64,000 bases of DNA, taken from assembly GCA_019119395.1 (NCBI GenBank), contig DWXC01000019.1, forward strand, positions 21,847 through 85,846, in the 5' to 3' direction. Within the stretch, counting starts at the first letter, position 1. Each line of letters begins with the position of its first letter. The notes below the pieces were generated by a model. That model worked only from the letters and a program-made list of their open reading frames with translations, was not told the origin of the DNA and did no database searches. This document shows positions 42,559 to 48,950 of this stretch, one piece after another. A program made the translations under genes and the position numbers. This stretch comes from Candidatus Borkfalkia stercoripullorum (GTDB taxonomy: Bacteria; Bacillota; Clostridia; Christensenellales; Borkfalkiaceae).

Positions 42559-43491
42559 TCAGTTTTTCTTTTTAACGATCGCTTTGTACGGCTTGATGAG
42601 CCCTTTCGAGATGAGCTGTTCGTCCGTCCTGTACGGAAAATGATAGTCCATATAGATACATCCGACGTTTGCGACCTCAAATTTTTCGGCGAGCGCCGAG
42701 ATGAGCTCCTTGGCGTGTTTGACGGCACGGACGCCCGTAATGCGCAGCTTCATGGGCGTTTCGGCATAAGATCTCCTGTCCGACACATCGGAAAAGCGGT
42801 ACTTCGAATCCTCGTAATCGGCTGGATCGAGCGCCAGATAAAGGACGAGCGTTTTTCCGCCGATATTCAGCTTGGCGACCTTGTTTTTCCCGATCCGAAA
42901 ATTTTCGCACCCCTGGCACATACGGGAGCGTATCCCCGAAAGCCCCGCGAGGGCGTTTTTGAGTTCCGTATAAAAATCCTGCGCTTTTTCGTTCTGAATG
43001 AGCCGCGCCTTGAACGAACGGCGGTAACGGGTCACCTCTTCATACCCCGCGGGGAGCGCCTGCGCGCCCTTCGGCCCCGCTTCTGCGGCGGATTGCCGCA
43101 CGGGCGAATCGCTCATGATCTCCTCCGCCGCGCGGCGGGGAGAAACTTCCTCTCCCTCGCTCTCGTCGGCGAGCATTTCGGCGGCGATCTCTTCCGCGCA
43201 TTCTTCCCCGATCTCCGAGCGCGTTTCGGCCGTCGGCCCGCTCTCCGCGGAAGAACCGTCCGCAGCGGCGGCTTCCGAACCGAGTTCTTCGAGCGCTTCG
43301 CGCATTTTATAACGAAATTCCGCTTTTGCGCAGGGGTTCGTCTCCCCTTTCACGCAAAAGCCGCAAAAGCTCAGCGTGCCGCAAAGGTCGCGCCCCGCGC
43401 GCTCGCTCGCAAGCCATTTTTCCACGTCGAGCATCTGTTGCCTTGCAAGAAAATCGCTGCCCGCAATGGCAGTCAGGTCTTTCCCTTCCAT
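42559..43491 (-). CDS. Uncharacterised protein: N-terminal Cys cluster plus C-terminal 'RRSF-ARLIQ' domain
   Basis: 'CGTLSFCGFCVKGETNPC' and 'CQGC'; C-terminal half aligns by eye with part of 47199-48836. Confidence 0.6.
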   Translation of the reverse strand: MEGKDLTAIAGSDFLARQQMLDVEKWLASERAGRDLCGTLSFCGFCVKGETNPCAKAEFRYKMREALEELGSEAAAADGSSAESGPTAETRSEIGEECAEEIAAEMLADESEGEEVSPRRAAEEIMSDSPVRQSAAEAGPKGAQALPAGYEEVTRYRRSFKARLIQNEKAQDFYTELKNALAGLSGIRSRMCQGCENFRIGKNKVAKLNIGGKTLVLYLALDPADYEDSKYRFSDVSDRRSYAETPMKLRITGVRAVKHAKELISALAEKFEVANVGCIYMDYHFPYRTDEQLISKGLIKPYKAIVKKKN

Positions 43492-43614
43492 TTTTCCGCT
43501 CCTCTCGTTTTCCGTGCCCGTGTTCCGGCCCTTTTCCCATGTAATATTATAGTACAAATCTCCCGCAAAAGCAAGACTTGCGGGAGATTTTTTCATAATA
43601 AATTGCGTTTTCGC

Positions 43615-44337
43615 TTACCAGAACTGACGCACGCCCGCGGGCATCGCGTCCTCTTTTTCGTCTTCCGTCTGCTTTTCCAGGCTTTCGATGCGCTTTCGGA
43701 TGCCGAGCATGCGCGCGTCCGTCGCGGCAATGGTTTCGGCGCAGCTTTTCAGTTCCGCCGCGATCTCGGGGCGGTCGGCACTCTCCTTTTTGTACTTCAT
43801 CTGATGCTCGAGGCTCGCCCAAAAATCCATCGCGACGGTGCGCAGCTGTATCTCCACGCGCATCATCCGTTTCCCTTCCGAAAAGAAAACGGGTATTTCC
43901 ACGATCATGTGGTAGCTCCTGTACCCGTTGGGTTTGGGCTTGCGTATGTAATCTTTGACCTGCACGACGGTGATATCGTCCTGCACGGCGAGCATCTCCG
44001 CGACTTTATAAATGTCGTCTATAAACGGACAGATCACGCGGATGCCCGCCACGTCGTTCAGATATTCGGAGATCGCCTCGATCGTGATCGGCTTTCCCAG
44101 CCGTTTGAGCTTGCCGACGATGGATACGGGTTTTTTGACGCGGGAAGTGATGCTCTCGATCGGGTTGCGACCCGCTTTATAGGAAAGTTCTTCGTTGAGC
44201 ACCTCGAATTTTGTACGCACTTCGCGTATGGCGCAGTCGTAACGGGTCATCAGTTCCATAAAGCGGTTGACCTTTTCAAACGTACTTCCTTCGCCGCCCA
44301 AAAAATCTCCGATCAGTTCGTGTTCGCTTTCGTTCAT
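43615..44337 (-). CDS. Small alarmone synthetase (RelA/SpoT-domain GTP pyrophosphokinase)
   Basis: 240 aa; 'VEIPVFFSEGKRMMRVEIQLRTVAMDFWASLEHQMKYK', 'VAGIRVICPFIDDIYKVAEML'; no HD domain. Confidence 0.93.
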   Translation of the reverse strand: MNESEHELIGDFLGGEGSTFEKVNRFMELMTRYDCAIREVRTKFEVLNEELSYKAGRNPIESITSRVKKPVSIVGKLKRLGKPITIEAISEYLNDVAGIRVICPFIDDIYKVAEMLAVQDDITVVQVKDYIRKPKPNGYRSYHMIVEIPVFFSEGKRMMRVEIQLRTVAMDFWASLEHQMKYKKESADRPEIAAELKSCAETIAATDARMLGIRKRIESLEKQTEDEKEDAMPAGVRQFW

Positions 44338-47074: not shown

Positions 47075-47115
47075 ACTGTATATATACATTATATACAGTA
47101 TTCACAGATTGTCAA
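47075..47115 (-). promoter_or_regulatory. Promoter plus palindromic operator of the GntR/ABC operon
   Basis: Minus strand TTGACA-16-TATAAT; ACTGTATATA-n5-TATATACAGT overlaps the -10. Confidence 0.85.
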
Positions 47116-47147
47116 GCATATTCCTCAACTTTGCCGAAAATAATAAA

Positions 47148-47183
47148 AAAACCTGCCTGCGGCATTTGCCGAAGGCAGGTTTT
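47148..47183. terminator. Terminator hairpin
   Basis: AAAACCTGCCT...AGGCAGGTTTT downstream of 47199-48836. Confidence 0.75.
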
Positions 47184-47198
47184 AATGCAGATCGACTT

Positions 47199-48836
47199 TT
47201 ACGCTTTTCTGATCTTGACGACTCTGCCACCCGTCAGCGCGATCATTTTGACCGCGGGGAGAGAGAAATCGTTCGCTTCGATCGTGAGGGATTTATCCAG
47301 GCTGCCGCGCGCGAGCACTTTATATGCCGTCGCTTTTTTATCGACGAGCCCCTTTGCCTGCAACGCCGCCAGATCGACTTTCTCCCCTTCTCGGAAATTC
47401 GCCGAAACGGTATCGAGGTTGACGTACGAACGTTTCGCCCGCGCGGCGCGGGGCTGTTCCTCCGCCTCTTCCGCCAGGGCGACGAGCTGTTTCGCCGTCG
47501 CGTCGGAAATGAGGATCTCCGCCTCGTTCACGCTGACGCGGTCGGTAACGGTATATGCCGAAAGGCTCTCCACCGTAGCGCCCTCTTCGATGTATTGCTC
47601 GAGTTCTTCTTCGGTGACCGTTTCGCCCGTTTCGCGCTTGGCGTAAACTTTGATGAGACGTTTTTTGATGAGTTCATCCCGCTCTTCGTAAGGAATGTCG
47701 AGTTTTTCCTCAAAACGCTTGTAATCCAGCCCGAACTCCGCCGCGGCCTGCGCGATGAGTTCGATCGCATATTTGAAGCTGCGGCTGCCCGTGATTTTAT
47801 AGCGGACGGGCACGGCGGCGTAACGCTTTTTTTCGGAAACGTCGCGGAACGTGTATTTTTCGTCCACGGAAGCGGGCGCGAGCGCGAGATACAATATAAT
47901 GCTTTTGCGGTTGGCATTGATCTTGGCAAATTGTCTGCGCCCGACATTGTAGCTGTCATAATTCCAGCTGACGCGCTCTTTGACGCCTACATAAGACAGC
48001 AGTTCGCTGCGGAGACCGTTGTAATAATCCTTCATCTCGTCGTCCGCCTGAATGAGGCGGGCGCGGAAACTGCGCCTGTACTGTACAAACACCTTTGTAC
48101 CGCTTACAAGCGTAACGAGCGCGTTGTCGATCTCGTCCCCTTCCGACGCTTCGTCCTCGTCTTCGGTTTCTTCCTCGTCTTCCTCGGAAACAGATGTTTC
48201 GGCGGTTTTTTCCTCTTCGGAAGCGGAAACGTCCTGCAAGGGCGGTTCTTCCGCCGATTCTTCCTGCGGAGCAGGTTCAAAGGCGGGTTCTTCCTGCGGA
48301 GCCGGTTCGGACACGTTCTCCTCTTCCGCAACGGACGCTTCGGGTTCGCAAGCCTGCTCCTCTGCGGCAGGTTCTTCCCGCACGGCTTGCTCATCGAGCG
48401 ATGTTACGGCAGACGATTCGGCGGACGCGTTTGCAGGAACTTCCGAATCGTCCTGCGGAAGTTTTTCCTCGGCAATCTTTTCCCATTTGGCGTACAGGGT
48501 CATGCTCTTTGCGCTTGCCTGCACCGTCCCGTCCGCGCGCTTCGTACACGCGGCATCCGTATACCATCCTTCGAAAGTATACCCGTCGCGTTCCGGCGCG
48601 GGCAGTCTGACTGCCTTATGCCGCCCCGTCTTTATGACGGTCTTTTTCCCGTTGCCCTCGTCGAGGACGATTTTCGAACGGCGCGCCAGCAGAATAAGGC
48701 ACGCGACAAGCAAAACGACCGCCGCCGCGGCAACGATCATCAAAACGATCATCGTAGGGCCGCCCGTACCGCTGCGCAAGTCCTCCCAAAAAGACGAAAG
48801 CAATGCGCTATTGTAAAAAGCATTCACTCGTATCAC
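47199..48836 (-). CDS. Membrane-anchored multidomain protein: TM + InlB-type repeat + acidic linker + 'RRSF-ARLIQ' domain + uL15-like C-terminus
   Basis: TM 'MIVLMIVAAAAVVLLVACLILLARR'; 'DGYTFEGWYTDAACTKRADGT...MTLYAKWE'; C-term 'VNLDTVSANFREGEKVDLAALQAKGLVDK...LARGSLDKSLTIEANDFSLPAVKMIALTGGRVVKI'. Confidence 0.65.
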   Translation of the reverse strand: MIRVNAFYNSALLSSFWEDLRSGTGGPTMIVLMIVAAAAVVLLVACLILLARRSKIVLDEGNGKKTVIKTGRHKAVRLPAPERDGYTFEGWYTDAACTKRADGTVQASAKSMTLYAKWEKIAEEKLPQDDSEVPANASAESSAVTSLDEQAVREEPAAEEQACEPEASVAEEENVSEPAPQEEPAFEPAPQEESAEEPPLQDVSASEEEKTAETSVSEEDEEETEDEDEASEGDEIDNALVTLVSGTKVFVQYRRSFRARLIQADDEMKDYYNGLRSELLSYVGVKERVSWNYDSYNVGRRQFAKINANRKSIILYLALAPASVDEKYTFRDVSEKKRYAAVPVRYKITGSRSFKYAIELIAQAAAEFGLDYKRFEEKLDIPYEERDELIKKRLIKVYAKRETGETVTEEELEQYIEEGATVESLSAYTVTDRVSVNEAEILISDATAKQLVALAEEAEEQPRAARAKRSYVNLDTVSANFREGEKVDLAALQAKGLVDKKATAYKVLARGSLDKSLTIEANDFSLPAVKMIALTGGRVVKIRKA

Positions 48837-48950
48837 CTCCCGAATACATAAATTATATCACAAAACCGACAGCAAAGCAAGGCTTTTGCTCGTTTTTCGC
48901 AAATACGTATGCGCCAAAATGCGACACGATCCGCCGCGTCGCATTCCCGA

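Follow-up and report, generated by a model that had tools for sequence, protein, structure and literature searches.

Ribosomal proteins that have taken on a second job are known. The case described here concerns a C-terminal domain whose closest described relative is ribosomal protein uL15 (rplO, TIGR01071, PF00828), with which it shares a homologous C-half domain of the same fold; unlike ribosomal uL15, it has no N-half, shares one chain with a membrane anchor, a linker and a YjbR-like domain, and belongs to a separate clade. The domain that precedes it finds its best structural match (2fki) in the YjbR/MmcQ (PF04237), YdhG/DUF1801 and CyaY/frataxin-like fold, from whose YjbR and YdhG proteins it differs by an additional C-terminal helix and strand and by the lack of any detected sequence-profile relation. 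InlB B-repeats or Listeria-Bacteroides repeats (PF09479) are not expected on the cytoplasmic side of a membrane; one clear repeat is present in the protein studied here, on the predicted cytoplasmic side of the membrane segment and in this respect unlike the known ones, and several occur in the ectodomains of some giant relatives. These giants resemble the sortase-anchored and giant surface proteins of Gram-positive bacteria in having a signal peptide and a very long repetitive ectodomain, whereas their family has no sortase and their C-terminus is a large folded, predicted cytoplasmic tail instead of a sorting signal. We know of no description of transmembrane or giant surface proteins that all end in a uL15-derived domain, and a search of the open-access literature returned no paper on such a tail.

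The window, i.e., the whole stretch of 64,000 nucleotides from Candidatus Borkfalkia stercoripullorum that was analyzed, carries on its minus strand an open reading frame of 545 aa at positions 47199-48836, counted from the first GTG of the frame (48836). Because this first GTG overlaps the Shine-Dalgarno sequence GGGAGG (48842-48837), translation likely starts at the second GTG (48827), which gives a product of 542 aa and a gene at 47199-48827 (-). A TATAAT read from the sequence at 48852-48857 (-) is a possible -10 element that is absent from the output of the consensus promoter scan, and the -35 candidate TTGCTT at 48880-48875 is weak. A hairpin followed by a T run lies 3' of the stop codon (47143-47183, -) and is a probable intrinsic terminator.

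The protein is a succession of distinct parts, all of them encoded on the minus strand. A single transmembrane segment (about residues 28-51; 48684-48755), followed by RRSK, was assigned from the sequence and its flanking charges. The InlB-type repeat (residues 65-117; 48486-48644) matches PF09479 with 48.2 bits against a cut-off of 27 and is also found in the orthologues of the genus, and the acidic Glu/Pro/Ser linker behind it (residues 121-238; 48123-48476) has a computed net charge of -42. These three features had been named in an earlier sequence-only reading of the DNA and were all recovered. The same reading spoke of an uncharacterised domain, which is accurate insofar as no Pfam family covers this region; the basic middle domain (about residues 250-396; 47649-48089) nevertheless belongs to a widespread family, across which it behaves as a repeat domain, and its predicted structure suggests a YjbR/YdhG-like fold. 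The uL15-derived domain (residues 469-545; 47202-47432) ends the protein, with the PF00828 match at residues 472-540 and further support from a PDB search, structure prediction and a tree. A membrane paralogue of 530 aa is encoded on another contig of the same genome.

The likeness of the C-terminus to uL15, put forward in the sequence-only reading, withstood comparison with the databases. PF00828 is matched with 45.2 bits (E 1.3e-11, cut-off 21.5), and phmmer against the PDB finds Staphylococcus aureus uL15 at 9e-7. Two of the checks that had been proposed, an AlphaFold model and a Foldseek search against uL15, agree with this result: the AlphaFold2 model, based on an alignment of 88 sequences, reaches a mean pLDDT of 89.6, and Foldseek aligns it with ribosomal uL15 chains (best E 8.5e-6, probability 1.00). 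By its sequence and its modeled structure, the C-terminus is homologous to the C-half of uL15, with a match far above chance.

A second, alternative ribosomal uL15 was considered as an identity for the protein and rejected. The N-terminal half of uL15 is missing, and the equivalog model TIGR01071 is matched only at profile positions 70-143 of 144, with 34.5 bits against a cut-off of 77.95; the ribosomal uL15 of this genome is a separate gene of 148 aa beside secY (G000:C4) that scores 158.6 bits. Conserved residues are also replaced, as seen when 109 tail domains were compared with 59 ribosomal C-halves (positions are alignment columns). The fold-core residues N7, V21, K46, L48, G51, S65, A68, I72, G76 and G77 are kept in both sets. 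D9, K29, A49, R50, K55, K70 and M71 are near-invariant in the tail domains, and only K55 among them occurs in ribosomal uL15, at 64%. Conversely, ribosomal E80 falls from 98% to 2% acidic, E52 from 83% to 3%, and K34 from 88% to 0% basic, and ribosomal E70 has become K70. The outcome is a basic signature, KVLARGxLDK...AVKMIxLTGG, and a mean net charge of +4.8 versus -0.2 for the ribosomal C-halves. In a tree of 100 domains, a single branch (SH-aLRT 99) separates the tail domains from the ribosomal ones. With every tail domain on the same side, a single origin is the simple reading, and the 78 alignment columns are too few to place that origin within uL15.

The relationships of the middle domain are less direct. 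AlphaFold2 on the domain's own alignment yields a pLDDT of 96.5, and the top Foldseek match of the model is E. coli YjbR, with a probability of 0.99 but an E value of 0.013, a target TM-score of 0.50 and an rmsd of 5.0; YdhG and a frataxin-like protein follow as weaker matches. PF04237 is matched by 2/58 members, at best with an E value of 0.0095 and below the Pfam cut-off, searching the PDB with a profile yielded nothing beyond a pyrin match at chance level, and hhalign detected no relation between the profiles of the middle domain and of YjbR proteins (probability 0.2%). Membership in the YjbR family is accordingly not supported; the middle domain appears YjbR-like in its fold, by a moderate match, without being a family member. 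Its mean net charge is +9.6. For YjbR itself, DNA binding via a double-wing motif has been proposed, according to a passage in PMC7641849 that cites Singarapu 2007. Two loci (L043:3543-6830 and L044:3808-6807) encode three or four tandem middle domains without a uL15-derived domain, so that the middle domain also spreads as an independent repeat.

Judged from domain content, the window protein belongs to a family of membrane proteins with a common cytoplasmic tail module, which also ends giant surface proteins. A scan of genome contigs returned 296 matching stretches, and the 80 best of them stem for the most part from uncultured Clostridia (the named members are Ca. Borkfalkia, Ca. Protoclostridium, Ca. 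Gallimonas and Ca. Limihabitans) and additionally from AT-rich contigs (31-33% GC) of Anaeroplasma/Anaeroplasmataceae. Within the same GTDB family, a search with the middle and uL15-derived regions gave matches in 95 of the 101 genomes covered, mostly to the middle domain alone. Tail-type matches occur in 21/200 genomes of the order. Among 399 genomes drawn from the phylum, a tail-type match was absent outside the window's own genome, whose two tail domains score 121-132 bits; the other matches (49-70 bits, frames of 146-216 aa) are such as ribosomal uL15 would give.

The domain order is nearly constant: a transmembrane segment with its basic stop-transfer is followed by an acidic linker, by between one and three middle domains and by the uL15-derived domain, and in the closed frames examined the latter ends 0-14 residues from the C-terminus. 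Genomes with tail proteins have several of them. The linker has a median net charge of -22 and an extreme of -98. Many members, including the window protein, have no ectodomain, and the giants range from about 1,500 to more than 6,000 residues (e.g., 5,220, 5,224 and 5,398 aa; the largest figure, 6,374 aa, is from an open frame). Giants with a closed N-terminus start signal-peptide-like, MBG, InlB or Big_2 repeats precede the transmembrane segment in some giants, and three giants (L034-L036) possess the uL15-derived domain without a middle domain.

Several deviating architectures were recorded. L086:8384-10894 combines a signal-peptidase-like N-terminal part (SDSMEP motif; PF00717 weak and below cut-off) with a middle domain and the uL15-derived tail. 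L144:2990-3769 joins a class II aldolase domain (PF00596) directly to the uL15-derived domain, as either a genuine fusion or an assembly chimera. Basic repeats like KRTRTKKPTETAATEETPKP replace the usual acidic linker before the uL15-derived domain in L147:3-755, whose frame is open at the 5' end. On a contig catalogued as viral (L251, IMGVR_UViG_3300032007_003637), one frame of more than 1,076 aa contains two or more middle domains together with a uL15-derived domain; this gene may stem from host contamination.

The orientation of the tail can be read from several features. The flank on the C side of the transmembrane segment has a mean charge of +2.2 versus -0.4 on the N side and is the more positive one in 71 of 89 proteins. 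In the giants, a signal peptide and a long ectodomain precede the membrane segment, which places their tail in the cytoplasm, and in four loci (L013, L106, L125 and L128) the segment gives way to a short N-terminal stretch that is basic and amphipathic-looking (e.g., MIVKLIEFFRRLFGRKK or MSLFDFFRRKKSK), which fits only a cytoplasmic protein. On these grounds, we consider the architecture and the cytoplasmic placement of the tail to be very probable. The flank charges likewise predict a cytoplasmic InlB repeat in the window protein, and the layout of membrane segment plus repeat recurs in the genus orthologues. The earlier proposals that the bulk of the protein, the InlB repeat included, lies inside the cell and that a uL15-type domain faces the cytoplasm on a membrane anchor thus stand as far as sequence can tell.

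Sortase (PF04203) was absent from all 61 family genomes searched, with three control genomes positive, and a C-terminal sorting signal was not found in the window protein, whose C-terminus is the uL15-derived domain. Among 200 genomes of the order, sortase occurs in 76 and the middle domain in 82, with zero overlap. At the level of families, the counts are 17/33 and 11/33, and the chance of zero overlap would be 2.3e-5 if families were independent. In an RpoB tree built from frames chosen by similarity, the sampled sortase families and middle-domain families nevertheless lie on opposite sides of one 100/100 branch, and because of this one deep split the exclusion counts as about one evolutionary event. 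Four sampled families without sortase have no middle domain either. A replacement of sortase by the tail, as one correlated change, is consistent with this distribution, which is no proof of it.

What the tail does is a question on which we take a tentative position: it is possible, though somewhat short of probable, that the exapted cytoplasmic tail acts as an inner anchor or plug for membrane and surface proteins via a polyanionic partner. The hold on the protein would come from the cytoplasm, through the tail module; the long acidic linker would keep two kinds of basic folded domain at a distance from the membrane, and these domains would bind a large or abundant polyanion, i.e., nucleoid DNA, RNA or ribosomes; if there is no polyanion, the ligand might be a dedicated protein partner. 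In the giants, such binding would resist the extraction of thousands of ectodomain residues in sortase-less bacteria, and the window protein, having no ectodomain, would be a stand-alone link from the membrane to the same partner. The basic shift and the near-invariant Lys/Arg residues suggest a nucleic acid or another polyanion as the ligand. Binding, partner and anchoring are what we infer on top of a homology, an architecture and a topology that were read from sequence. Against anchoring, the basic domains could simply pair with their own acidic linker, many members offer no ectodomain that would need anchoring, a few seem to be soluble (L028, L096 and L124), the exclusion of sortase is about one event, and the relation to YjbR is one of fold only. 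An integrin-like arrangement in this sortase-less clade, in which the exapted uL15 and YjbR-like tail would link the giants mechanically, across the membrane, with the nucleoid or else with ribosomes and RNA, seems doubtful to us.

Pairing of opposite charges would be productive in itself if the basic domains bound their own or sister acidic linkers, or a dedicated protein, and clustered the membrane proteins in patches. Such a scaffold would agree with the charge complementarity within the molecule (linkers to -98, domains of +5 and +10), with the number of tail proteins per genome and with the existence of soluble proteins that have only the middle domain, one of them within the window; it is rendered rather unlikely by the 6 of 105 members whose linker is non-acidic (net charge -3 or higher) although the basic domains are retained, and by near-invariant residues that point to a specific ligand and not to a diffuse one. 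The true uL15 homology, the kept fold-core residues and the basic character of both tail domains could also mean that the uL15-derived domain attaches to ribosomes or rRNA, keeping them at the membrane, in line with the tethering role suggested by the sequence-only reading. The tail has, however, lost the N-terminal half of uL15, falls below the TIGR01071 cut-off, has abandoned the ribosomal residues E80, E52 and K34 and turned E70 into K70, all in a genome that retains a normal uL15, and we regard a tether of this kind as unlikely.

Transmembrane proteins with conserved folded tails might alternatively relay a signal, with ectodomain contact altering the tail and acting, e.g., through nucleic acid binding or the neighboring alarmone synthetase. 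A middle-domain protein adjoins a RelA/SpoT-type synthetase in several species, but this is the soluble paralogue and not the membrane protein; moreover, the tail has no catalytic or known signaling domain and many members have no ectodomain, which makes a signaling role quite improbable. An origin of the fusion from frame errors, assembly chimeras or contamination had to be weighed, given that nearly all genomes are metagenome assemblies and that the aldolase fusion is odd. The domain order is the same in 80 loci whose assemblies are independent of one another and whose GC contents span 31% to 59%, which contradicts such an origin, as does the separate clade of the tail domain with its own residue signature; an artefact was rejected as extremely improbable.

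For Ca. Borkfalkia and its relatives, which are uncultured bacteria of the gut, the data suggest that surface proteins are tethered from within by a means not described so far. Should the tail serve as an internal anchor, this would explain how a large sortase-less clade keeps hold of surface proteins that are 3,000 to 6,000 residues long, and the cell surface would be coupled to an intracellular structure. Caution is advisable in annotation, since automatic pipelines can label such proteins ribosomal protein uL15.

With respect to the genomic neighborhood, a soluble protein with the same middle domain and no uL15-derived domain is encoded downstream of the gene of interest (42562-43491, -), and the gene of the RelA/SpoT-type small alarmone synthetase (PF04607, 117 bits) lies directly upstream of it; the pair, at 42562-44337 (-), recurs in six other loci (L056, L060, L062, L068, L070 and L071). 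Further neighbors are an Fe-dependent alcohol dehydrogenase, a helicase, a GntR regulator, an ABC transporter and a ferredoxin protein, and the neighbors are partly conserved around the genus orthologues. An operon-based function was considered, but no neighbor explains the membrane-anchored protein. A consensus promoter (TTGACA-16-TATAAT) is located at 47088-47115 (-), upstream of the genes for the GntR regulator and the ABC transporter, which come after the gene of interest.
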